A DNA stretch of 64,000 bases from Rhizophagus irregularis (Eukaryota; Glomeromycota; Glomeromycetes; Glomerales; Glomeraceae): assembly GCF_026210795.1 (NCBI RefSeq), contig NC_089447.1, positions 1,242,501 through 1,306,500 on the forward strand, in the 5' to 3' direction. The notes below the pieces were generated by a model. It saw nothing but the letters and a program-made list of their open reading frames with translations. It made no database searches and was not told where the DNA came from. Made by a program: the position numbers and the translations under genes. This document shows, piece after piece, positions 14,001-58,858 of this stretch (position 1 is its first letter; every line of letters starts with the position of its first letter).

Positions 14001-16026
14001 TATTATGATTATTGCCGATGGTGTAATTTTTGGTTCTGGTAATGATTTATCAACCCCCGATATTTGTCTGTCTTTGATGCATGAATTTGTTGTACCTAGA
14101 GATGATGTAATAGCACATTCTTATGTTGCTATTGCTGATGGAAAAAAACGGCATAACATGGCTAAAGTATATGCTGGTTATTATAAATGTAGAGATCAAC
14201 ATGATCATAATAAAGTTCTTAAGATTCCAATAGTAACTATTGTAAAATGTGGAGGTCCTGATGAACAAGATGAAAAAAAACCGGGTAATCGCGGAAAACG
14301 TGACTCTCAAATGATTTTGATGAGTTTCTTACAAAAAGTTATGTTTGATGAAAGAATGACACCTCTTGAATATGAATTCTTTAATTCAATTCGAACCGTT
14401 ACTGGTGTTACTCCCGATCATTTTGAAATCGTTCTTATGGTAAATATTTTTTTAAATAATAATAATAATATTTATAAATTTAAATTAAATTTTTACTTAA
14501 GTCTTTTTTTTTTTTTTTTTTGTCAGGTTGATGCCGATACAAAAATTTATTCTGATTCGGTAACAAGAATGGTTGCGTGTATGTCACGTGATTCTTCTAT
14601 TATGGGTCTTTGTGGTGAAACAAAAATTGCCAACAAGAAAGATAGTTGGGTTACTGCGATTCAAGGTAAGGCATTTTTTTTTTTCCGGAAATAGTATGCG
14701 TAAATAAATTTTAAATGTTTGATTGATTTATTTGTTTATTTATTTTTATTTTTAGTTTTTGAATATTATATTTCTCATCATATGCAAAAAGCATTTGAAT
14801 CGATTTTTGGTGGTGTAACATGTTTACCGGGATGCTTTTGTATGTATCGTATTAAAGCACCAAAAGGGCCTAATGGATATTGGGTACCAATTCTTGCCAA
14901 TCCTGATATTGTTGAACAGTATTCTGAAAATATAGTTGATACACTCCATAAGAAAAATCTATTATTATTAGGAGAAGATCGATATTTATCAACATTAATG
15001 CTTCGAACATTCCCAAAAAGAAAAATGGTATTTGTTCCACAAGCAGTATGTAAAACGATTGTACCTGATACATTTAGGGTACTTAGATCGCAAAGACGTA
15101 GATGGATCAATTCTACCGTACACAACTTATTAGAATTAGTATTAATCCCAGATTTATGTGGAACTTTTTGTTTTTCAATGCAATTCGTTATATTTATGGA
15201 ATTGGTTGGTACAGTAGTATTACCAGCTGCTATAACATTTACTTTATATCTTATCATAATATCATTTGTAAAAAAACCCGTACCATATCTTCCACTCGCA
15301 CTTTTAGGTGTTGTATTGGGTTTACCGGCAATTTTAATTTTATTGACAACACGTAAAATTGTATATGTTGGATGGATGTTAATTTATTTATTCTCGTTAC
15401 CAATATGGAATTTTGTATTACCAGTATATGCTTATTGGCATTTTGATGATTTCTCATGGGGACAAACACGTAAAGTTGAAGGTGAAGAAGCTGGAAAGGA
15501 TCATTCGCGTAAAGAAGGAGAATTTGATAGTACTCAGATTGTAATGAAACGATGGGCAGAATGGGAACGCGAAAAACAATATAAGACTAGAGGTTCAATA
15601 AGTTCAATACAACAACATATTTCATCGGCTCCGTTAAGTTCAGAAGAAGGATATTCAAATTCAAGACCAGGAAGTGAAAAATCTTCATATTATACACCAT
15701 CTCCATTAAATCCAGTATTAAGAACTGGTGGTAAAAGAAATACAGGACCCGGCGTAAAGACGAGAGCTCCTACTTCAGATTCTTTAAAGGTACCTCCTCC
15801 GTTAAGTAACTATTCTTCTCCTCCCGATTCAACCAATAGTAGTTCAACACTCACAACGGATGCATATGCTTCAACTCCGACTGAAATAGATTATCAACAA
15901 AATATAATACCGAGATCTAATAATAATAATAATTTTAGTTATAGTAGTGATAATAATAATAGTAATTTTCCAGGTAATTTCGAAGAAGCTCATTTACGGG
16001 ATCAAAATGGTTATGATTCTTCGTAA
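11017..16026 (+). CDS. Chitin synthase, class IV (Chs3-like), six exons
   Basis: The predicted protein is about 1525 residues, with exons 11017-11638, 11729-12938, 13022-13432, 13515-14439, 14527-14665 and 14756-16026; all junctions keep frame. It polymerises UDP-GlcNAc into chitin at the plasma membrane. The first ~420 residues are disordered, rich in Gln/Asn/Ser, with basic stretches. A first membrane segment lies near residues 438-458 and a second near 685-715. The glycosyltransferase-2 core follows: VDADTK (~1057), GLCGETK, EDRYL (~1176) and QRRRW (~1215), then a cluster of C-terminal membrane helices (~1245-1330) and a Ser-rich tail. There is no myosin motor, which argues against classes V/VII; yeast Chs3 (1165 residues) is shorter, the excess being low-complexity ends. 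Intron 3 contains a TTTG microsatellite. The start is the first ATG after an AAT repeat. Confidence 0.93.
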
Positions 16027-18534: not shown

Positions 18535-19914
18535 CTAATGTAAATGTTTATCATTATGAGATTTAACTACTTTACTTAATAATTCAGCTTGATTTGCAAC
18601 ATCACGAAGAGCTCCAAGTACGATCCCATTTCCTTTAATAAAACCATATAAATGATATTCTAATCCTACTTCTTTACAAAATTCGTTAACTAAACGTTGA
18701 CAATCTCTAAGATTATGCCTGGGAACTCTTGGAAATAAATGATGAATAGCTTGAAATTGCAAACCACCATGAAACCAATCCATCCACCAAGGACAATCAA
18801 CGTCCATTGTAGTACGCAACATCTTTTTTGGAAAAGATTCTAAAGGTCCATAATCTTCCGTTGACATTCCAAAATGTGATAATGTAATTTGTACATGCAA
18901 AATCATTGTAACCATATGAGAAATTAGGATATATAATACAATTGTCGATATTGATGGTAATAATGATAATAAATAAGTATACCAACACCAAAAAAATATC
19001 ATACCACTTATTTCTAACCTACGAAAAGCTACATTTTCTTCATTAAATAAAAAATTAATTGATAATGCATAAAGATTAAATCTACCAAAACACAATACTG
19101 GATAATATAAATAATGTTGAAATTTTACAAAAAATCTTGCTGGTGTATCAAAATACAAAGTTCTTTTATAAAAACTTGAATATAAATTATTAAAAAATTT
19201 TGTTGTAACGGCAAAAAATGGTAAATGTTGAATATCAGGATCATGTTCAGGATCATTTGTTACAATGTGATGAACATAATGATTTCTTTTCCACCATCCA
19301 ATACTTAATCCTCCCATAAAATCTGCAATAAATATTCCAATAAGATTATCTACAAGTAAATTATGAGTAATTCCATTATGACCAGCATCATGAGCTGTGA
19401 ACGCGAGTTGATGCCAAAATAATCCAAGGAAAAATGCACTTAACAAATATTGCCAGACTTGAGTTCCATAAATAACCAATATCCAAGCTGAAATTATCAG
19501 GAAAATATAACGAATACTTTCATAAAAATAATTCCAATAATTGCATTCGTATAATCCTAGTTCATGAAGCTTTAAATAATATCTACGATAAGTTTGAGAT
19601 ATTAACTTTTGTTCTGATAATTTTTCTTCTTTCAGGTTAGTATTTTCTTCATATTCTCCGATATAAAAAGTGTTAATCTTCTTCTTAAAAACATATTCAG
19701 GATGAAAAACGTTTATCTCGTCTGTAGCGTCTTTACCAATCATATGACGGATTGCAAGTTCTCCTCCTGGGTGATATTTTATCCATTTATTCAATTTATA
19801 AACTTTGTTATTATAGATTATAAGTATTTGCCCATTTTGTACGCGTTTTTCAAAATCTTCTTGGCTAATATAATTACTTTGAGGTGTAATTGTTTCGGCA
19901 TGTGGAGGTGCCAT
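18535..19914 (-). CDS. Cytochrome b5-fusion delta-8 sphingolipid desaturase-like
   Basis: A single uninterrupted exon encodes 459 residues, unusual beside intron-rich neighbours. The N-terminal cytochrome b5 domain has HPGG at 48-51 and a second heme His in VFHPE (~71). The membrane desaturase part has the three His boxes: HDAGH (~173), HHIVTNDPEHD, and QFQAIHHLFP, in which Q replaces the first His as in front-end desaturases. Such enzymes sit in the ER and introduce a double bond in the long-chain base of glucosylceramides, or in polyunsaturated fatty acids. The WWMDWFHGGLQFQAIHHLFPR stretch resembles fungal sphingolipid delta-8 enzymes more than acyl-CoA delta-5/6 enzymes, but substrate cannot be fixed from sequence. 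It is convergent with the MOSC gene, 114 bases away. Confidence 0.9.
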   Translation of the reverse strand: MAPPHAETITPQSNYISQEDFEKRVQNGQILIIYNNKVYKLNKWIKYHPGGELAIRHMIGKDATDEINVFHPEYVFKKKINTFYIGEYEENTNLKEEKLSEQKLISQTYRRYYLKLHELGLYECNYWNYFYESIRYIFLIISAWILVIYGTQVWQYLLSAFFLGLFWHQLAFTAHDAGHNGITHNLLVDNLIGIFIADFMGGLSIGWWKRNHYVHHIVTNDPEHDPDIQHLPFFAVTTKFFNNLYSSFYKRTLYFDTPARFFVKFQHYLYYPVLCFGRFNLYALSINFLFNEENVAFRRLEISGMIFFWCWYTYLLSLLPSISTIVLYILISHMVTMILHVQITLSHFGMSTEDYGPLESFPKKMLRTTMDVDCPWWMDWFHGGLQFQAIHHLFPRVPRHNLRDCQRLVNEFCKEVGLEYHLYGFIKGNGIVLGALRDVANQAELLSKVVKSHNDKHLH

Positions 19915-20597
19915 CGTGTCAATTTAATGTGGCTGTGTGTGACGATTCGACGATTATTACAATATTATATTAATATAACTTCATCCAAAAATCGCGTAAA
20001 ACAAATGATTTTGAAAAAAAAAACGCGCAAAATAATTTTTTTTATTTTGAAGTAATACAATAATCATGAAATAAAGGAGAGAGAAAAAAAAACGAAACCG
20101 AAAAAAACGGGAGTATTTATTTCTAACATGGTTATCTCAGATTAGATTTTGACTATCTATATAATATCAGTTGTAAAACGTGCGCAGATTTTCAGATTTT
20201 CCTCGGCCTAAAATATTCCGTAATCTTCCAATCTCCACATATAAAGTTATCGTAAGATCAAATCAATCACAATGAAAGAGGATGTAAGAATTTTCTTACA
20301 ATACGTACAACATGCACAATTTAACTTTGTCTGCAAACACCCCAGTTGGTGCTGAAAATAAGATTTCATTTGATTCGCTTAATACCAAGATTTTTGTTTC
20401 CTATGTAACTTAAATGAGATTTTGCCAAAAAATTAAAAATATTTTACGGAATTAGACATGTGAAAACGGGTTGTGTGGCTTGACTGTGGCTCAGTTGCTA
20501 TCATCAGCCACTGCAAATAAATTTGACTGATTAAAAAAAAAAGTTCTTCCTCTTCTTTCCATCTACTTTATTTAAGTGGTACATCGAATTCATCATA
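19915..20597. promoter_or_regulatory. Divergent intergenic region, desaturase / L10a
   Basis: It separates the minus-strand desaturase and the plus-strand ribosomal gene and must hold both promoters. A pyrimidine-rich stretch (TTCTTCCTCTTCTTTCC, about 20545-20561) lies shortly before the L10a start, as is common at ribosomal protein gene starts. No other feature is visible. Confidence 0.4.
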
Positions 20598-27735: not shown

Positions 27736-28083
27736 AAAAAATAAAGGAATAATAAAACATGGATCTTTTTCAATAATTTTAAGATTTTCAATGGTGTGCC
27801 ATTTTTCAAAAGATCTACTCTCCTGATTCTTGTTACCCAAATTCTTTGACATATATAAGTTAAAAAGTGAAAAATCAGGTATTAATTGGTTACTAAATTG
27901 TTACCAATCAGGCAGTTTGCTAACTTTTGATCCAATGATCAGAAAGAATGAAATATAGTAGCTCATTGAAATTATCTCAATAAGATGAATCTAATGGTAG
28001 TAAAATTGCATTTCTAGGATTAATAGTCAATAAGAAATTAAATAAAATATAAATAATATATTTTTGTTTTTATATTTTACTTA
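27736..28083. other. Spacer with diverged fold-back repeat at 27858-27931
   Basis: 27858-27931 resembles the perfect fold-back element at 60113-60189: it shares AAAAAGTGAAAAATCAGG and ATTAATTGGTTACT-like parts, but its arms have decayed. The rest is featureless. Confidence 0.4.
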
Positions 28084-28206
28084 TCGCCATTTTCAAAATA
28101 GTATGCGCAGTGACGATCATCAACCTAAAAAAAAAACCTGATTTCCACCCAAAATTTTTAAACATGATATAAACAAAGCGTTTACTTTAGAGATTTCCTA
28201 AGATTC

Positions 28207-29536
28207 TTGAACAGTTTTTGCATTATAGAGTTCATATACAACTTCTCCTTAAATTTTAGGCCAAGTTATTATATACTATTTGGAGTTTTTTTCGCTCAAA
28301 GTTCACGATTTTTACGTGATTTTTCAAATTTAAGAGATTCTCATTTTGTTTTACTTATAGCTCGTACTTTTAGTGAAGATTTGAAGTGGCGGATTGTTTA
28401 TCTCTACTATGATGGTCATAGTCGAAGAAAAATATCTGAATTATTGCATATCAGCAGAAGTATTGTCAATAAAGTTTTACAAATATATGTAAAATGGGGT
28501 ACAGTAGTGAATCCTTGGCAGAAACCACCAGGACGTCATAAGACACTTTCTCATGACGAAATGAAGGTATTGCTTATAAACAAAAGGAAATACGAACAAA
28601 TTGAAATATAGATTGATACTAACTGTATTAACAATTCAGATTTTATGAGAATTAGTTAAAGACAAAGTGGATTGATACTTAGATAAACTTGTAGGGGAAC
28701 TTGAGTTGCAAACGGGAAAGTTAGTTTCTATTGCAACACTTTGGAGATCTTTATTTTACTGTGGGATCAGTAGGAAAAAAGTGAGCTTTAGTCTATTATA
28801 AATTTATTTTTTTTTTATTATATCTTATTGTTTTATTGTAATTTGTTTTGTAGTTACATCGGGCAGCTCAGGAACGAAACAAACTTCTTAGAAGTATATT
28901 TATTGCAAAGGTTGGACGTGATTATAGGCCTGAGCAGCTTATATTTATGGATGAAGCTTCTAAAGATAACCGTACTCTATCTCGTGGATATGGGTATTCA
29001 TTCAAAAACACTTTTGCAACCAAAAAAACTGTATTTGTACGTAGAACTCGATATACAATATTACCTGCTTTATCTTTACAAGGCATTATTGCTGTCGACA
29101 TAATGGAAGGTAGTTGTACGAAAGATAAATTTAAAGAATTTGTAATTTCAAATGTGATATGTTAAGAATGATAATTTTTATTTTAATTATTTTTAATTTT
29201 ATTATTTATAATTTTATTGTTTACATTTAGGTGCCTCAAATGAATTCGTATCCTGCTGAACAAAGTGTTCTTGTTCTTGATAATGCACGAATTCATCATG
29301 ATGAAGACCTTATAAATTATATTGAAGCATTTGGTGGTCGTGTTGAATTCCTACCTCCTTATTCTCCTGATTTTAATCCCATTGAATCTTGTTTTTCTGT
29401 TATAAAATCTTTTTTAAAAAAGTATAGAGATTTTGTTAATACATGTAATAATCCTAAATATCCTCTTTTAATAGCATGTTCCCAAATTACTCCACAAATG
29501 GCTGCAAAATTTTATAAAGATTCAATTTATATGTAA
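28207..29536 (+). pseudogene. Tc1/IS630-family DD34E transposase, broken
   Basis: The recognisable protein begins at ARTFSEDLKWRIVYLYY (~28360) with a helix-turn-helix (RRKISELLHISRSIVNKVL). It continues over introns of about 73, 63 and 68 bases into the DDE core. Catalytic residues are the Asp in FMDEASKD, the Asp in LVLDNARIHH and the Glu in DFNPIE, with 34 residues between the last two, i.e. DD34E. The expected start codon before ARTF reads ATA, and two in-frame TGA codons (28646-28648, 28673-28675) follow the first intron. TGA is a normal stop here (PPIL2 ends in TGA), so the copy is inactive. All three faults are explained by single transitions. Confidence 0.85.
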
Positions 29537-29675
29537 ATAAAATTATATAGATTGCAAATAGAACTTTATTCAATTTCAATAAATTTTTATACCATCATAA
29601 TTGTAAATTTATTATATTTTTACATACTTTTACGCTAATTATAAATTTATAAATTTATTATATATATTGCTATAT

Positions 29676-31195
29676 TTATTGATGGTAACGTTGTGCTGCA
29701 GCTCTAAATGCTTTACGCCATCCAATTTTATTTATACCCAGTTGATCAAATTCAGCATCGGTAAGATCACAAATTTGATCTACAGTAATTTGTTCATCTT
29801 CAAAAGTACTTTTAAATCTTAAAAATTCTTCATTTTTACTTGACAATTCATCAAAAAACTCATCAAGAGATGGAACTGGTTGTTGTCTTGAAAATGATAA
29901 TACATTATTTGGTAAACTACTTGTAGTTGGATTTTGCACAAATGATTGAATCATTTGTGATGGAAAAGCAAAAAAAATGGGCGCTGTATTATGATCTGAA
30001 TTGGAAACCATAGGTGTTGATACTTTGGGCTTTTCTTTAACACTGTTAGATCGTGAAAAAATTGGTAAATTTGGCACCTGAGTATTATCTGTAGTACCTC
30101 GAATCTAAAAATAATCTGATGATCAATTTTTATATCAGTATTATAATACAATAAAAAAAAAATAAAAATTACAATTTCCTTAGCCCAGCACTGAAAATGC
30201 ATCGCAGTAAGCTTTATATATCTTTTATCATCAACAAAACATGACGCACCATGTTGATTACACTTGTATTGCTCTCTTAATTCATGAATTATAAGCCCTT
30301 CTTGTTGTAAAATTGCAGAAAAATCATCTACTTTTGGAACTGCATTTTTCCTTTTATGTACACTGACCTCTTCATCATTTGATTCTTCAGAATCTGAAAT
30401 CTCCTATTAAATAAATAAAATTAAAAATAATTATTTGTATACACAATTGAATATAAATATTACCTTTCTCTTCTGCTTTTTCTTTTTTAAAGATACTAAA
30501 ATCACTATATTTTTCTTTTTATCCAACAATTTTTTGTAATCCAAAAGAAATTTTTTATAATCTTGTGCGTCCATCAATTGTGTTCCAACTCCTTCAGCTT
30601 TTTCTGGTTTATATGATACTAAGTAATCTGAATGCATTATCTCTTTATCACCAGTTAATTTTACAACGTATTGATGCACACATGCAAGAATATCATCTAG
30701 TGATGATGCTTCTATTTCTACCCATTTAGATGGCAATGTTGGACCAGTAGATGATTTTATCATCAAATTGAATGAAATAATTTGTTCTGCTTCTGATTTT
30801 TCATCCAAATCAATACTAATATTATTTTCCAAATTGTTTTCAAGTTCTATATCCACATTATGTGAAGTAGAAGCTTTTAATGCAGTTTTAGATTTTTTTC
30901 TTTGAAATGCACTATTGCAGGCAGAGTAGAAAGAAAATTTAAACTCTGTGTTAAAATTTATGGAATATTTGAAATAATTAATCTTCTCTTGAATATATTC
31001 AAGCTGTTTGGGTGGCAAGTCAGGTTTTAAAATTCGAGAGAATACATTTCTTACTTTATCAGTTCGGTTATTTTTGTGTGGTTTTATAGTTTTATCACAT
31101 AAACACATTTTTTTCTGAATACTAAGTTCAGCTCCACAATAGAGACATTTTTTACAGCTAAAGCAAGTGCCAATGAGGTATTCATTATGAGTCAT
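29676..31195 (-). CDS. Transposon-borne Cys-rich / SAM-like domain protein
   Basis: Three exons on the minus strand join in phase 0: from MTHNEYLIGTCFSCKKC at 31195 to QKRK near 30464, then EISDSEESNDEE to AMHFQCWAKEI (about 30404-30171), then IRGTTDNTQVPN to the TAA at 29676. Together they encode about 450 residues. The N-terminus has CFSCKKCLYCGAE and MCLCD, a zinc-ribbon-like set of cysteines. A central segment (~FNLMIKSSTGPTLPSKWVEI to NIVILVSL) alternates strands and helices, possibly a beta-grasp fold, and ends in a basic KKKKQKRK patch. A YKCNQHGASCFV element follows. The last ~65 residues (LDEFFDELSSKNEEFLRF…ITVDQICDLTDAEFDQLGI) resemble a SAM domain. No frame break is visible, although the neighbouring transposase is broken. 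Function is unknown. Confidence 0.75.
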
Positions 31196-31390
31196 TGTTA
31201 AATTGAGACGCGTTTTTTAAAATAAATGAATAAAACGCGAGTTTAAATTTTTCGATTATTAAAATTTTTAATTTTTAATTGGTTGATCTCATTGTTTTAA
31301 TCATGTGATGTTGATCATTCTGATATTCACAATCAGGAATCGATTTTCACATCACATATTGACTGCGCATACCATTTTGAAAACGGCGAT

Positions 31391-31875
31391 AATGAAAAAA
31401 TGTTGTAAAAACATTTTTTTTAAATATATTATTATAGAAAAAACGTTTTTGCAATGTTTCTATAATAATTTAATGAAAAAATGTTGCGAAAACATTTTTT
31501 TTAATATATTATTATAGAAAAACATTTTTGCAACGTTTCTATAATAATTTAATGAAAAAATGTTGCGAAAACATTTTTTTTAAATATATTATTATAAAAA
31601 AAAACATTTTTTCAACGTTTCTATAATAATTTAATGAAAAAACGTTGCAAAAACATTTTTTTTTTAATATATTATTATAGAAAAAATGTTTTCGCAAATC
31701 GCAATATTTCTATAATAATTTAATAAAAAAATGTTGCGAAATGTTTTTTCAAAGTAATTTTAATTAGAAAAACGTTTTTGCAACATTTTTTTAATTAATT
31801 TAATGAAAAAACAGTGCAAAAACATTTTTTTTTAATATATTATTATAAAAAAAATGCGCAACATTTTTTTATTAT
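31391..31875. repeat. Tandem array of ~80-bp palindromic units
   Basis: About six units of roughly 80 bases each start AATGAAAAAATGTTGC and end TTTCTATAATAATTT. Each unit is itself an imperfect inverted dimer, with AACGTTGCAAAAACATT-type halves around TATATTATTATA. The array abuts the right TA of the Tc1-like element. Similar arrays are at 60010-60270 and 62590-62826. Confidence 0.8.
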
Positions 31876-38288: not shown

Positions 38289-40636
38289 TAAACCATTTGT
38301 ATTCTAATAGGCCTAATGTTAAATCAGCAAATAACTTTTAGCATAAATAACCAAATAAGTCATTTGTACACTAATACTAGTTTTATGGTTCAGTAAATAA
38401 TGTTGGATGATAGGCAATCCAGTAAACTTCAAATTATATTACTTTCTTTTAATAAAAAAATTTTTACTTGCCTTTTTATATCTGTTAAAAAGAATTTGTA
38501 CACTTTTTTGCCTGCTATCTTGATTATTATCAGTGATTTTTTTAAGGAATTTTATGTAAAAATTTATTTTTCTGTTAAACAGCTCTAAATCACTCTTATT
38601 CAGATAGTTAAAAATATTTCAACTTTTAGGATTTTAGTTAAAGTATTCAGACCTGTTTTTTTATTAAGAAATCTGATAATCTGTAAATCAGTTTAAATCT
38701 CCAATTAGATTCTAATTAATTATATATTTTTAATTTGATTGAATTATAAATTATAAATTTTATAATTTGATTCAGATTTAATTCAAATCTGATTCACAAA
38801 TACAAATCAGATCAGATATTTTGCAGAATTTTTATATTGTAAAAATTATAATATTTTAAAGATCCTATAAATTTATGAAATATTACAAAAGTATAAATTT
38901 ACATAATATTATATCTAATTAAATTTGCTAATGAAAGAAGTTTTAACATAAATTTTATTGCTTTTACAAAAGTGTTTAATAATTTAAATTAGTTTGTATT
39001 GTATTTAAAATACCTGTGTTCACCTCCAATTCTCATTTTATTTACAACTTAAAAAACAGTTATATATTATAGATGTTTAAAAGGCGTTTGTTCTTGTTTT
39101 TGCTATAATTGAAATTGCAACAGTTTGGTTTAAATTTGTTCTTATTTGTATATTTAATCAATAGTATTGTGTCTGAATATTTGTATTTTTTTATTATTAA
39201 AATAAAATAAAATAAATATTGGGAACATATTCACCAATTCGTGGAATTAGCCAAAATTAAGATTTTCATAAAGATTTGCACATTTTAACAAGAATTATAT
39301 TTTACAAGCTTAAATTATATGTGTTATATAATCAGATGATCTAAATCTATCAAAAAATAAAAAAAATTTTTTAACATTTATTCAAAAATAACAATGACAA
39401 CTACTTTTTTTTTCAATTACTTTTCAATTACTTTTCAATCAGATTTTTGTTAGGTGATTCAGAAAAGTTTATAGGCATATATGGCAGGTTTTTTTTAATT
39501 AGTAAGTAAGAAAACAAATATTAATAATTTATATTAATAAAAAAAATCTTATTTTTAACCTTAGTGCCTTCTTTTTCTTAGTAAAAATATATACAAAATA
39601 AAAATGTGAGTTGTGATTTAGAGTTTTTGAGATGTTTTTTTTTGTTTTTTACTATACTGATTTTATTCTACTTGTTAATTACTTTTTAAAATTGATTTTA
39701 TTAATTTATTCAATTTAAAACAGAAATAGCAAATAAAACCTTGTTAAATAGTAAAGTAAAAAGAGCTCAATAATACCTGTAAAGATCATCTTTTAGTAAA
39801 AATTATAATTTTAAAAATTTTTGTGACAGAGTTTTATTCAATTAACAAAATTGTTAATATCTCGGCGTACATGCATGCTAAATACATATATTTATATTCA
39901 TATGAAAGCCCAGAACCTACTCTACCTGAACGAATAAAATCATTCAGATCGAATTACTAAATATGAAGATATTAACGATCAAAGTTAAAAATAAATATAT
40001 TGAATATAATTATTCAGCAACTTATGATTCAATTCATGCAATATTTGGTTTTTGGATAGCTCTTGATTACCTCTTTCTAATGAATATAAATTCATTCATC
40101 TAACACACATACACGTTAAGTTATTCAATTTTAATGATATTATTAAAAAAATCAAAAAATAATATAATTAAATCAATTTTATTTATGTCAGCTGGTATCA
40201 TTTTCATGTAACTTGTATTTGCATTTGCTTAATAAAGTTAGTTTTTTGAATATAAAAACTTAATTCCATAAATCAGCCCATATGACTTGATTTTCCATTT
40301 TACTAGTTAATTTTATATAATTTTTCTGATATACTAATAACTTTTTTATAATGTAATACCAATGATGGTATTTTTATAATAAAAAATTAATTGTTATAAC
40401 CACTGGTAATAACATAACAAACTAGTAAAAATAATAAATACTATGCAATTTAATTTGTAATTCCAAAAAAAAAAAATAAAATAAATAGAAGGTTAATTAG
40501 AACCCAGCAATATATTTAAAAAAATACAAATTTAAAAGGTTATATACATGTAAAATTAAAATTTTTATTTTGATTATTAGTAGATCGAATACTTACAACT
40601 CAACCATTTGAAACAGAATTTAAAATACTTATATAT
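38289..40636. other. Gene-poor AT-rich stretch with a fold-back at about 39840-39990
   Basis: I see no coding region. 39851-39985 has inverted ends (GTTAATATCTCGG and GAAGATATTAACG) around a more complex centre, comparable in layout to the cores at 1600-1740, 4380-4520 and 26080-26200. Confidence 0.45.
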
Positions 40637-41758
40637 ATGTTTCAATACTTAATAGATGTTCATGCACACGTTTATCCTTCCTCTTTTCCGAATACGCCGA
40701 TTGAAGAAATACTTTCACGCGCAAAAACTGCGAATGTACAGTCAATAGTTACTGTTTCAGAAACATTGGAAGATGCAAAAAGTATACTAGGCTTGAAAAA
40801 TGGAACACTATCTGATTCATTAAGAGAAATGATTGAACCCTGCGCAGGCTTACATCCTGTGCAGCCAGTAGGAGCAATGAGTTTAGTTAGTACAGAGCAA
40901 GCTAATAGTATCCTTGAATTCATCCAGGAGAAGTCAACTGAATTAGTTGGAATTGGAGAAGGTATTATTATTTGTAACATATATCAATATAAATAATATA
41001 AAATTGTAAAGTTCTCATTTTCTTTCTCAGTTGGTTTGGACTTTACTCCTCATATTTTAAAAAATGCAATTGATTCAAATACTAATTTGAATCTTAGTAC
41101 TGAAGAATTAAAAAATATACAACGACAAGTTTTAGCGCGACATATAGCGCTTTCACTTCAATTAGATCTTCCCTTGAATGTTCATTCGCGTAGTGCTGGT
41201 CATCATGCATTAGATTGCTTGCGAGATTATGGCGCAAGAAAAGTAGTAATGCATGCTTTTGATGGTCAATTAAAATATGCTAGAAAAGGAATCGAAATGG
41301 GGTATAGATTATTCATTATTCATTATTTTTTTATCATGAATCTTGATAAATATTTTCTATATTAAATTTAATAATTGTTATGATTTATTTTGCTTAGATT
41401 TTTTTTTTCAATTCCACCTTCAATAATTCGATCGCCTCAAAAACAAAAATTAGCAGCAGAAATTCCATTAACAAACCTTTTGCTCGAAACGGATTCTCCG
41501 GCGCTAGGTCCCACAAAAGGAGTCGATAATGAGCCAAATAGTATTATTATAAGCGCAACAGAAATTTCTAGAATCAAACAGATTCCAATCGAGGAAGTGG
41601 GAAGTAACGTTCTTTTATGCTTTAACAGTATAAAAAAATGATGTTTATTAATTAAAATATTCTATTTATTTAAACAGATTCAACAAACAACGAAGAACGC
41701 ATTCAAGTTATTTTCGAGAATAAATATTAATCGAAAATCTTCTCTATTAACCATTTAA
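40637..41758 (+). CDS. TatD-family DNase, TATDN3-like, four exons
   Basis: Exons 40637-40961, 41031-41301, 41398-41596 and 41678-41758 give 291 residues in frame. TatD enzymes are metal-dependent TIM-barrel 3'-5' exonucleases. Visible metal-site motifs are [10 protein letters not shown] at the start, [28 protein letters not shown] and [11 protein letters not shown]. The [18 protein letters not shown] segment and the [14 protein letters not shown] end match the TATDN3 subgroup. The last intron uses a less common GTGGGA donor; retaining it would replace the conserved helix with a short random tail, so I prefer splicing. Confidence 0.92.
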
Positions 41759-47302: not shown

Positions 47303-49050
47303 ATGGCAGTACCACAAGAACCAGTATTAAATGGGAACGAGAATACAACTCAAACCTACCAATTTTCGTCACCTAAAGCTGCTAGAACAAAACAACAACT
47401 TAAAAATGATTCATCGACTCAATCACAAGATGGAGATTATTTACATATTTCAATAACGACACTGGACAGAAACCGTCGCGATCCAGTTTTCAAGTTTAAA
47501 GCTATTGTAAGAGCTTTTATTTTTGAATATTTAATTTTGCTCCAGGCTTAAACTTTCGTTTATTAAACATTTATCTATTATTTTAGACTAATTTGCCAAG
47601 ATATAAAAACAGTTCATATCCTTTAATTGAACGTTCACATGCAGAATTTGAGCGATTATTTAATACATTGACTTATTCTAATCCGGAGTGTATAGTTCCA
47701 GCATTGCCTTTTTCATCGAGTAGTTATCAAGCAACCGAGGATGATGAACGTAGAATTAAACATTCTATGCAACAATGGGTTAATCGGGTGGCAATGAATC
47801 CTGTTTTATGTCATGATGAGGAACTTAGATCATTTATAGAAACTGATTTTGCTGTAAGTTTCGAATCAGATAAAAAATCAATATCGCCAGTAAATATTAT
47901 ACAAGTGTTAAAGTTTCTTTATTTTAGTTTATCCCAGCTACTAAACCACGGAAGAGGACTAGTAGTTTTAAGCTTAAGTTCACTCCCGATATTAGGGATG
48001 AGGATAAAGCATTGGTTCATGCCAAATCAACAGCACATATTTTAGAAGGACATTTTCTTAATATTGCAAAAACTATTCAAAAATTGGCGGGATATCGCAA
48101 AGGTTTAGATCTATAAATAGAACTTTTCTTTTTCTTTATGTGAATAATTATTGAAAAATTTTCAAATTATTAGGATTAGCAGCATTTAATTATGATCTTG
48201 GAACAAAATCTATTGCAATGGGAACAGTTGAAAATCATCCTCCTTTATCGAAGTAAATTTTAAGTAGATGTTGAAATTAATGAACGTTTCAATTTAAAAC
48301 TTACAATATTTGTTTTTCTTTTAGTGGCTTACGAAAATTTGGAAAAACACTTCAAATAATCAGTGAGCGACAGAAATTACAAGCCATCAGTGAAGCAGCT
48401 ACTCTTGGTGACTTTTTTAGTTACTATGCAATTAATTCTCATGTAGTTCAGGTATATATTTGCATAATAGGCAATTACTTATGTAATTTGAAGTGACTTT
48501 TTTGGTTGTTTAGTTGATTAATTGGCGTTCATGTAGGAAACTTTAGCAAATCGTCTTAGAATTATTTCTGAACACGATGATGCAGTTAAAACTACTATAA
48601 GCAAAAGACGTTATATCGAACGGTTAAAGTCTTCGACGAACATTAAATCTGATAAAGTTAATGAAGCCTTGGAAGATTTAGATTATGTACGTTTCATTCT
48701 CTGTTAAAAATGATTTTCGGTTGGACGATGATTCTAATTTTTTTTTATTTGTCTACATTGAAAATAAAAAGGCCAAAAGTTATGAACAAAACCTTGACGC
48801 ACGCGTCAAAAATGTAACGAAAAATCTTCATACCGAATTAAAAATATACGAAGAAAATCGTGCCCAAGATTTTTTCAGTGCTGTTAAAGAATATGTTAAA
48901 AAACAAATTTTATTTGAGAAACAACAATTGAACGAATGGGAAAATTTGAGACCAGACATTAAAGCGATTACGAAACGTAATATGCACATCTACGCATTTG
49001 GAGATGAAAAGCTTGATGCTAAATCAGTCGCCGAGAAATTGAATAATTGA
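47303..49050 (+). CDS. VPS17: Vps17-type sorting nexin (PX-BAR), retromer
   Basis: The start chosen is MAVPQEPVLNG, because the upstream in-frame sequence is hydrophobic noise. The PX domain runs FKAITNLPRYKNSSYPLIERSHAEFERL to PECIVPALPF and DERRIKHSMQQWVNRV. The BAR part follows with LEGHFLNIAKTIQKLAGYRKG, FGKTLQIISERQ, DFFSYYAINSHVVQETLANR and RLKSSTNIKSDKVNEALEDL, ending VAEKLNN. Six short introns keep frame. PALPF, RLKSS.N.K.DKV and RPDIKAI match fungal Vps17 rather than Vps5 or Snx41. Vps17 with Vps5 tubulates endosomal membrane for retromer recycling. Confidence 0.9.
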
Positions 49051-54896: not shown

Positions 54897-57800
54897 ATGG
54901 CAGATTCTATAGAAAGCAGCGAAAATTCAATCGCATCTACCCCAATTAGAATGTCAACTTACGAAGGGCTGGGACCTGATATCGTGGTGTCTTCTCCATC
55001 AACTCCACGACGGTCTATATACATGCAGACACCGGCGGCAATAAAAAAACAATTACAAGACCAACTAAATGAAAAATCAAACCAAATCCAAATGACTGCC
55101 GAATTAGGACAAGCACTAGTAAAGCAACAAACAGAACTGGAACAACGAATACGAGAACTTGATCAAACTCAAGGCGATGAAGTTCCTCAAGAACTTAAAG
55201 ATAAATTGGCCGAATTAGAAAAACAAGCTAATGCTCTTGAAGCAAATACAGCCAAAGTCTTCCTTGGTACTAAAGGACTTACTTCGGTAAGGAATAATTT
55301 CATAAATTTTTTTCATAAAATAGCTAAGATGTATTTACATTAGTTGATCATTATAAACAAATGTTATTTATTAATGTCAGGTAAATTTATATATGTGATA
55401 GTGCATGTTTCTTATCTAAGTTTACCTAATGTATTTTCAACAAAAAACACAATTTTTCTAGTGTGAAATTGCTATAACATCGTTTTTACTTATTTTATTC
55501 GGTTTATACAGGGTGGAACAGATTTAGCCGGATCTACTGGATCTCCTGGTCCTTCTGCTACATCAATAGCAGATTCAACACCCACAACAACTACAACAGG
55601 ACGTCCAAATAGACGTGAATTAAACAAAGCGAAAAAACGTAAAGATGATATTGAACTTGCCACCGAAATAGGACAGGGTCTATTAGTGGAGATTCGACGT
55701 TTACAAGCATTACTTCAAGAAAAAGAAGAAAAAATAAAAGAACTTGAAATTGACAAAGCAGAACTGGAACGTATGATCGATGTACTCAACAAGCAAATTC
55801 GAGGAAAGGAAGAATCTGAAGGTATTTACAATATTTTATCCGAAATTTTTGATTGTTTTTTTCTTATTTAAATTATTATTTTATTAATCATTACATATTA
55901 TCACTACATTAGAACGGTACAAAGACGAAAATTGGAATCTTGAATTAATGAGGCAAGAAATGAGTGCAGAATTAGAGGAACTTCGGCAACAATTAAATAA
56001 AACACGTAATGATTATTCAAAAATCGAAAAGGCTCTCGCGACTGCAACTGATGTTATTGATCAACTTAAAGATAAAGAAGAAAGGTTGACAACAGACTAT
56101 CATAGTTTAAAGACTCGTCATGACCAAGATATGGCTAATAACAGAAGACACGTTGCTGCGCTTAATCGAGAAAAGAATGATCTATTGAAAAATCTTGAAG
56201 AATTGAGAGCTCAATTGGCATCATTACAAGCAACCAGAAACATAAGAAAACGAACGCCCGAACCAGGCGCAGGTCCTAATGATGATGAACTTGGTCAACC
56301 AATTCCCAGTGATAATGATACTAGTAGCGAAGGTATACCAACTGCTTTACAAGGCAAGAATTTGAATAAAGAAGAAACTTTGAAGGCTCTAGGAATTGCT
56401 AAAGACATGATCGGTAGTCTTCGCGCAAATCTTCAAAAGGAAAAAAGTGAAAAATATGAACTTAAGAAACTTTTAGCAGATAGTCAAGAACAAATTGAAG
56501 CAATGCGCTATGAGACAGAATTTGACCCTGCTGCAGTTTACAACAAGAAAGTTAAGAAGAGTAAACGATCAAAGAGATTGTCTGCGGCAAGTAATGGATT
56601 ACCTAATATTGACGAAAACGATTCACAGGATGAAAATGAAGATTCTGGTGATGATGATATGGTTATCAATAAAGATAATCGTCCTTCGTCGGATATGTTT
56701 AGACCTCATGGATGGAAACCTGATCTTTTGAGAAAAAGTAGGAACTCAACTCGAAGTTCTATAATGTCAAGTAGGATTGATGAAGATATTCCTGGTGATG
56801 AATATGATGAAATAGAAGATGATGAAGTAGTCGCTGCACAGAGAGCTGAAGCTCTTAATAATTTAACCAAACCTAAGAGAAGTTCATCTCGATCGTCTAA
56901 GCAATCGTTGGTCGAAGATCCTGAATCTTTCGATTTTACAGGTGATGCTAAATCTGTAAGGGATTCAGTTGTACGTAAACGTGTCAGCGAATACGAAGAT
57001 ATTGTTAATAGAAAAAATAGTAAACTTATTAATCCTGAAACCGGCGAGGAAGAAGAAATTAAAGATGATGCGTCTTCGGTAGATTCATTTACATCTGCTA
57101 ATGAGACTAATTTAGATTCTAAAAGAGGATCTGCCACATCAAAAAGAAATTCAAAACGCGGATCCAATAGAGAATCTTCAACACTATTATTATCAGATTC
57201 ACTCACTAAAAATATTCCTGAAGAGGTTGTTCCCAGCAAGGAATTTAGAGATGTGGCAGTACAAACAGAGGCAGGAAGAAGTGATTCACTTTCCACAATT
57301 CATACTGGCAAGTTTACATTCGGTAACCGAGATACTGTTGTTTATGATGCGTCACGTGAATCTAAAGACATTTCAAACACTCGTCAATCTGTTGCTTCAG
57401 TTCATGAAGACAATGAAGACAACAACATTGAAAATCGATTTACACTCGATTTAAGTTCAGGTAATCGGAAAAATTTACAAAGTCAACAAAGTCAACAAAA
57501 TCAACATCAACAAAATCAACAAAGTCAACAAAGTCAACAAGGACATTCAGATCCTCCGCCAAGACCAACAAATAGTCCACCACCAACCCTCATGCATCCT
57601 CCCACCGTAAATTTCGGTCAACAAGCTGGATCACCGAAAATTCCTCATCATCCATTAAATGTTGGTAGAAAAGGATCTACAGATTCGCAAGATATACAAA
57701 ATGTTATAGGAAATGGAAGATCAAATCATCAACATACACTAAGTTCAGATTCAGTGTCAACTGTTAGTAGCACTTCTACTTCAGCTGAACAAGTAGGTCG

Positions 57801-58858
57801 TTCTGACACATCCCACGTTGAAGCTGGTAGCAGTACTGGACCAATGACTGGACCAATGACTGGGCCAATGACTGGACCCTCAGGCACAGATCCAAATATC
57901 ATCCATGCAATCACCCAAACAATGATAGGTGAATATTTATGGAAATACACTAGAAAGAATTTCGGTGCTGGAATTTCGGAGAAACGACATAAACGATTCT
58001 TTTGGGTTCATCCTTATACAAAAACCTTATATTGGAGTATTAGAGATCCTGGAAGTTATGAACCAGTAGATCCTAAATCTAAGGGCGGCATGTCATATTT
58101 TGGTATGTTGACATTAGTATTAATTTGTATATTTCTTTATTTTAAATTAATTATACAAATAAATAATTTCTTAAATTTTTTTAGCATATATTGAATCGGT
58201 GCGGCAAGTTGTTGATCATAATCCTTCACCCCCGGGTCTTCACCACATGAGTTTGGTTATTAAAACACCCGAAAGGGAGTTAAAATTCACTGCTCGATCT
58301 AAGGAACGACATGAATATTGGTTTCAGGTTTGTTATATATTATTAACTATTTTAAATTTTATGAATATTAAATATTAGTAATCTAATGTTATTTTATTTA
58401 TTAAGGCTTTAAGTTATTTACTACAACGACCTGACGAAGTGGGGCAAATAGGACAGGGGCAAATAGGACAAGGTCAAACTCCAGGAAGAATTGCAAAAAA
58501 TGGATCGGATCCATGGGAGAATCAAGCAAATATGCAGAACCTTCATAACAATACATCACCAAATGGATCATTAAAAGGATCGAATCTCAGGGAAATTAAG
58601 AAAAAATCCAGTTTCAGTAAGATTCAAGCAATGTTCCGCCGAGATGGATCATCTTCATCACCTACATCACCACTTTCAACAGAATTTGTAGATGGTCAGC
58701 ATCAACAATTTGCCATACCAGGACCTTCAAATAGTAACATTGATGACGATGATGAGGATTTGGAAAATGTACGTCAATGTTGTGACGGGCGTCATGATGT
58801 GAGCAAGTTGGAACGTGCACCTCACAAGCATCATCATCATCATAATGGCCATTATTAA
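54897..58858 (+). CDS. Num1/Mcp5-like cortical anchor, coiled coil plus PH domain
   Basis: Exons 54897-55286, 55512-55821, 55913-58102, 58185-58327 and 58406-58858 join to 1161 residues. The N-terminal third is mostly heptad-type coiled coil (~50-130, 165-330), including LATEIGQGLLVEIRRLQALLQEKEEKI. Then come a long acidic/Ser-rich disordered region, a Q-rich SQQ/NQQ repeat (~750-775) and four GPMT repeats just before the PH domain. The PH domain (~896-1021) opens AITQTMIGEYLWKYTRKNFG and contains RHKRFFWVHPYTKTLYWS and KFTARSKERHEYWFQAL, typical of the Mcp5/Num1 C-terminal PH family. These proteins bind PI(4,5)P2 at the cell cortex and anchor dynein and mitochondria. It ends in a His-rich tail. 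Confidence 0.9.

Follow-up and report, generated by a model that had tools for sequence, protein, structure and literature searches.

A Tc1/mariner DD34E clade in Rhizophagus irregularis that carries a convergent SAM-domain gene, a probable accessory of transposition

The Tc1/mariner element described here lies in a window of 64,000 nucleotides, the whole stretch of Rhizophagus irregularis DNA that was analyzed. In our reading it belongs to a clade of DD34E elements with two genes inside their terminal inverted repeats (TIRs), one for the transposase and a convergent one for a partner protein with a Cys-rich N-terminus and a C-terminal SAM domain. Judged from the sequences, the two genes form one unit, have moved jointly, have a congruent history and are both under purifying selection. 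On balance, we favor the view that the partner is a transposition accessory protein, and these elements most likely use two proteins, not one, since a second conserved gene has travelled with the transposase through many branches.

The element in the window and its two genes

The features of the element are collected in Table 1. The first-pass annotation had described 28-base TIRs identical at 26 positions, with TA on both sides, and the sequence together with a shuffle control bears this out: the end pattern is matched twice in the window and not once in 100 shuffles, and the TA duplication expected of Tc1/mariner was read directly at both flanks. The similarity of the two ends fades past ~28 bp. 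An end motif of the form TCGC-N-N-TTTTC, with variations, is resembled in most of the 18 two-gene elements compared.

Table 1. Coordinates of the element and its features in the window.
Feature	Positions	Strand	Basis and remarks
Left TA target-site duplication	28082..28083		Read from sequence
Whole element, two convergent genes inside TIRs	28084..31389		3306 bp; TIR pair and TA flanks
Left TIR, 28 bp	28084..28111	+	Pair comparison; similar end motif elsewhere
DD34E transposase gene, broken copy	28357..29536	+	Spliced alignment, direct translation, DDE_3, HTH_23
Partner gene, 463 aa, open throughout	29676..31195	-	Gene model and relatives
Partner: C-terminal SAM domain	29679..29882	-	Model, Foldseek, PDB profile, Pfam relatives
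Partner: third module	30048..30349	-	Near-invariant C292, C299, H306, W317; split by intron 2 (30105-30172)
Partner: middle domain	30476..30781	-	Y191, K196, G202, L207, F216, Y220 conserved; single-sequence model
Partner: Cys-rich N-terminal module	30899..31165	-	C11, C14, C20, C31, C33, C93; Tyr at 90 here
Right TIR, 28 bp, 26/28 identical to left TIR	31362..31389	-	Pair comparison
Right TA target-site duplication	31390..31391		Read from sequence

As to the surroundings, the TA next to the right TIR is the exact starting point of a tandem array of 79-82-bp units (31390-31854, 5.7 copies), at whose edge the element seems to have inserted. Host genes near the element encode a chitin synthase (14704-16023; Chitin_synth_2, 1.4e-158) and, at 18538-19923, a fatty acid desaturase fused to cytochrome b5. 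Further along lie an exon of a TatD-type DNase (40574-40993), a PX-domain exon (47587-48042) and an Mcp5_PH-domain exon that belongs to a long protein (55888-58191).

The transposase gene is predicted to consist of exons at 28357-28566, 28640-28780, 28854-29153 and 29231-29533, joined across GT-AG introns and followed by a stop codon at 29534-29536. Its product matches DDE_3 (E=1.1e-25) as well as HTH_23 and carries the triad D150/D234/E269, with 34 residues between the second D and the E. The DD34E transposase recognized in the first pass thus stands by its triad and its DDE_3 match, but this gene copy is not intact: the expected start codon reads ATA, and exon 2 contains TGA in frame at 28646 and 28673. 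Across the clade, the D-34-E spacing is found in 20/20 transposase representatives, the first D being located in 19 of them. DDE_3 is matched by 7/7 members, and the N-terminal HTH by HTH_SB in five, HTH_23 in six and Tc3_2 in one of these seven, several matches lying below the curated cut-offs. The nearest solved relatives are the PAI subdomain of Sleeping Beauty (1.5e-4) and the catalytic domain of SETMAR. The clade's transposases have both the triad spacing and the paired-type HTH of Tc1/mariner, and by its TA, TIR, triad and HTH signatures the window element fits the DD34E kind.

The partner gene, on the minus strand, has predicted exons at 31195-30464, 30403-30173 and 30104-29679, with GT-AG introns and a stop codon at 29678-29676, and converges with the transposase gene such that the two stop codons lie ~140 bases apart. 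Conserved residues were taken as near-invariant columns among 20 subfamily representatives; these columns and the predicted exons confirm the convergent, three-exon gene with a Cys-rich N-terminus of the earlier description. That the gene is also intact holds for its reading frame, which runs from ATG to TAA without internal stop, but a Tyr replaces the near-invariant Cys at position 90, where 17/18 representatives have Cys. The Cys-rich N-terminal module, of which C90 is elsewhere a part, is presumably zinc-binding. The middle domain was modeled as a weak beta-beta-alpha-beta-alpha-beta arrangement (pLDDT 32-60 in this block and 38.1 overall, for a single-sequence model of exon 1), and its sequence gave one match only against the PDB, at E=1; that it is beta-grasp-like is a guess from this model. 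In sequence searches of Pfam and the PDB, no convincing relative was found for the partner outside its SAM domain, and neither Myb nor MADF families occur among the Pfam matches of nine partner members. A scan of viral contigs by alignment yielded 62 pattern matches to the partner, none of which was confirmed. A basic stretch is present (best 5-6 of 8 residues in partners), yet transposases also reach 4-6 of 8.

The C-terminal SAM-like domain proposed in the first pass is weak when sought in the window copy alone (Pfam E=0.012, below the cut-off), but is upheld by relatives, a profile search and a model. Indeed, Pfam SAM_1 is matched by 5/9 partner members (best 3.8e-6), and a profile search of solved structures in the PDB gives 1.8e-4. 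Structure prediction of the partner succeeded for this part, with residues 390-463 modeled as the five helices of a SAM fold at a pLDDT of 79.8, but not for exon 1, where the value was about half as high. In Foldseek, the model matches the tankyrase-1 SAM (TM 0.72/0.86, E 0.066); the 50 rows listed are all SAM entries, with E values of 0.06 or worse and probabilities of 0.87-1.00, and include a tankyrase filament entry. SAM domains are protein-protein modules, and the model is nearest to those of tankyrase, Shank and BICC1, which we take to be polymer-forming.

Pairing of the two genes across the genome

The genome of this single species (146.7 Mb, 32 contigs) was searched with three partner and two transposase protein queries, and the matches were grouped manually, giving 71 partner clusters and at least 67 transposase clusters; counts based on the transposase are lower bounds. 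At least 53 of the 71 partners lie no more than 4 kb from a related transposase, all 53 in convergent orientation and with a median gap of 134 bp; at 8 kb the number rises to at least 55 pairs, of which 54 are convergent. When positions were randomized, a transposase came within 3 kb of 0.2 partners on average and of 2 at most. The possibility, raised in the first pass, that the partner family occurs mainly outside TIRs is contradicted by this regular placement beside the transposase.

Among the matches listed, 18/71 partner clusters are unpaired, and most of them cover just part of the gene. Later insertions seem to have broken up some of the elements: the partner N-terminus missing at C8:218877 is found at C8:209062, and C9:5206191 and C9:5222960 are likewise complementary. 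The partner at C1:7466348, ~95% identical to the window copy, is adjoined by a convergent transposase remnant. A different case is C30:551539-553106, an open partner (479-aa model, dN/dS 0.36 against its C3 relative) for which neither a transposase match nor a recognizable end was found in the stretch read; it is possibly a solo or domesticated copy.

On the transposase side, 14 of the 67 clusters listed are unpaired, most of them comprising only part of the gene. At C29:3243835, however, a full-length transposase with one in-frame stop has no partner in ~2.8 kb. The stretch adjoining the unpaired transposase C6:477461 scored 59 against the partner, where shuffled sequences reached at most 56 with fewer queries and fewer strands, so that the margin carries no weight as a sign of a decayed partner. 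A copy of another subfamily, C29:702510-712359, has its transposase gene split by an insert of ~2.2 kb, with a partner N-terminus further off. Furthermore, of 150 DDE_3 places listed, 43 have a partner match no more than 5 kb away, whereas the other 107 have none at that distance. These 107 include at least five unpaired members of the clade (C29:3243931, C6:477545, C3:2087644, C11:1355162 and C1:7473864), and the others are absent from the clade's matches listed. Since most listed DDE_3 places are without a partner nearby, the partner appears to be tied to one clade of the genome's Tc1-type transposases.

The ends themselves were also sought. The window-type end pattern, allowing up to 3 mismatches, has 80 matches genome-wide and none for a reversed control. 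Six of these form three pairs 3.2-3.3 kb apart, three are single ends adjoining partner clusters, and two belong to the truncated copy C7:4028314, which retains a partial transposase and, in the stretch read, no partner. Another 32 make up 16 short pairs of opposite ends, spanning 116-185 bp; in the four of these TIR-only elements that were read, both genes are absent and only the ends are common with two-gene elements. The middles of these four contain CCGGTTTT-like repeats. The remaining 37 matches are single ends. The first-pass annotation had asked whether other copies with the same TIRs always hold the partner. Among the copies inspected, this is so for all three pairs of 3.2-3.3 kb, which enclose both genes, but not for the four TIR-only elements or for C7:4028314.

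Joint movement, shared history and selection

At 32 loci both genes could be modeled over most of their length, shorter models being excluded, and in 22 of them both genes lie inside a TA-flanked TIR pair that is identical at 21/28 or more positions. At loci outside the window the TA was a condition of the search and is not independent evidence, and since chance pairs of 19-23/28 occur in this AT-rich DNA, the weakest TIR calls rest on shared end letters. Among the other 10 loci are tandem and decayed copies as well as stretches that possibly fall short of the ends. At C11:369916-374900, a two-gene copy lies inside a different, 28/28 identical TA-flanked inverted pair, not the usual ends. In 8/32 loci both gene models are free of stops and frameshifts, with the caveats that starts and ends are not modeled in all of them and that the aligner can skip a stop by calling an intron. 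Two of these eight partner models, at C1:4509200 and C7:2974800, end before the SAM domain; a SAM-exon match was found at the C1 locus.

Five subfamilies contain two or more copies that are 98.4-99.4% identical across the 3.3-3.5 kb unit, and the alignments of these copies stop at, or a few bases from, the TIRs. Because near-identical copies align from TIR to TIR, the two-gene unit has moved recently. Together with the enclosing TIR pairs, these copies corroborate the earlier claim that the partner is mobilized in the same unit as the transposase.

The comparison of trees suggested in the first pass likewise came out in favor of co-inheritance. For 20 representatives, 12 close copies being excluded, the transposase and partner trees have 13/17 splits in common, whereas trees with permuted leaves share 0.26 on average and never more than 3; the conflicting splits are poorly supported in at least one of the two trees. 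The distance matrices are correlated with a Mantel r of 0.92, a value reached in 0/9999 permutations, and the slope of the distances shows that the partner diverges ~2.5x faster than the transposase.

Selection was gauged by simple whole-gene NG86 counts without a likelihood test. Between subfamilies (10 overlapping pairs), the transposase gives dN/dS values of 0.14-0.24 and the partner values of 0.22-0.43, indicating purifying selection on both. For 11 pairs of recent copies, the ratios are 0.40-1.46 for the transposase (9 values) and 0.41-1.64 for the partner (10 values), in line with the decay expected of copies once they are inserted.

Known systems and the possible role of the partner

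Tc1/mariner elements are usually about 1.3-2 kb long. The Rhizophagus units are alike in TA site, short TIRs, HTH and DDE_3 domains and D-34-E spacing, yet add a regular, convergent second gene and reach 3.2-3.6 kb (18 elements). Additional genes have a precedent in the TBE/Tec elements of ciliates, which are Tc1/mariner DD34E elements with three ORFs, one of them reversed, and the extra ORFs of TBE are reported to be under purifying selection (PMC7325037, PMC4724952). These extra proteins comprise a site-specific recombinase in Tec and a zinc finger-kinase protein and a 22-kD protein in TBE; the available text of both papers also reports telomeric repeats in the TBE TIRs and names no SAM protein (PMC7325037, PMC4724952). 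The ciliate TIRs are reported to measure about 700 bp (PMC7325037), whereas the Rhizophagus element has two genes and TIRs of ~28 bp. Hence, the first-pass statement that no Tc1-family system with this partner has been described still applies, within the text available, to a SAM partner, but has to be qualified by the ciliate precedent for extra genes. Among open-licence papers, judged by titles and abstract openings, no description of such an element or partner in fungi was found; in their accessible parts, two papers on R. irregularis transposable elements name Tc1 elements and no partner gene (PMC11075540, PMC8647823).

In the way it works, the closest comparison may be PIF/Harbinger, where a transposase and a separate Myb-like accessory protein are both reported to be required (PMC9710019). 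PIF/Harbinger has a transposase of another superfamily and a Myb/MADF accessory domain, while the transposases studied here all match DDE_3 (7/7); the likeness is that of a transposase with a separate accessory gene. We lean toward a partner that acts as the Myb-like protein does, so that, by analogy, it would contact the transposase and be needed for transposition. The DD34E transposase would cut and paste the whole unit at TA. The Cys-rich modules of the partner most likely bind DNA or the transposase, its basic stretch would take the protein into the nucleus, and its SAM domain would self-assemble and thereby gather transposase and element ends into a higher-order complex. A bolder and more tentative version is that elements of the clade are immobile unless a SAM protein self-assembles into a polymer scaffold, which might organize transposase and ends in fungal nuclei; we know of no such scaffold in cut-and-paste transposons.

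Several observations count against an accessory role, namely the unpaired clusters of both genes (18/71 partner and 14/67 listed transposase clusters) and the loci C29:3243835 and C7:4028314 without a partner. Since the transposase carries its own HTH and DDE domains, it might need no help. The ~170-bp TIR-only elements share little beyond the ends, so that a binding site for the partner would have to lie in or beside the TIRs; a single subterminal motif common to the ends of all 18 elements was not seen.

The main and strongest rival, which we regard as possible though rather doubtful, makes the partner an anti-silencing factor that is dispensable for cut-and-paste and instead binds element DNA or host chromatin, removing or blocking CG methylation or small-RNA silencing. 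VANDAL elements are Mutator-like. The VANC protein of Arabidopsis VANDAL elements provides the precedent, these being DNA transposons with a non-transposase protein of their own for which anti-silencing was shown (PMC10398659). CG methylation of transposable elements is reported in R. irregularis (PMC8647823), and the faster divergence of the partner, ~2.5x that of the transposase, is what an arms-race protein might display. Purifying selection nonetheless acts on the partner (0.22-0.43), and whole-gene NG86 counts, which are blind to single sites, give no sign of positive selection; no tandem target repeats were found in the element ends compared.

We consider it unlikely that the partner is a target-site or copy-number factor, by which the SAM protein would tether the complex to host chromatin or restrain the transposase. 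Its SAM domain is of a protein-protein type and the window element adjoins the tandem array of 79-82-bp units, but one insertion beside an array does not make a preference. Less likely still is host cargo, that is, a captured host gene kept for the benefit of the fungus: the open partner at C30:551539-553106, without transposase match or end, could be a retained host copy, yet gain and loss would be expected of cargo, while the partner of each subfamily is tightly convergent with a transposase of the same clade and the trees are congruent. As most clusters adjoin a transposase, a host gene family is also disfavored. Chance capture, be it a nested insertion or a host gene where TIRs happened to land, is scarcely credible, found nothing in its favor and was rejected, as the same layout recurs in at least 53 places and in many diverged subfamilies against a random mean of 0.2 (maximum 2).

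Tc1/mariner elements are the textbook case of a transposon with one protein and are in wide use as tools. Here a second gene has persisted over long divergence in a clade that still has recent copies, which makes the clade a natural test of what such a partner gives; it might aid assembly or targeting, bring the complex into the nucleus or help the element to evade silencing. The finding would also name some of the repeats of arbuscular mycorrhizal fungi, a good many of them long unclassified, and a SAM/Cys-rich protein family that annotators may have mistaken for host genes.
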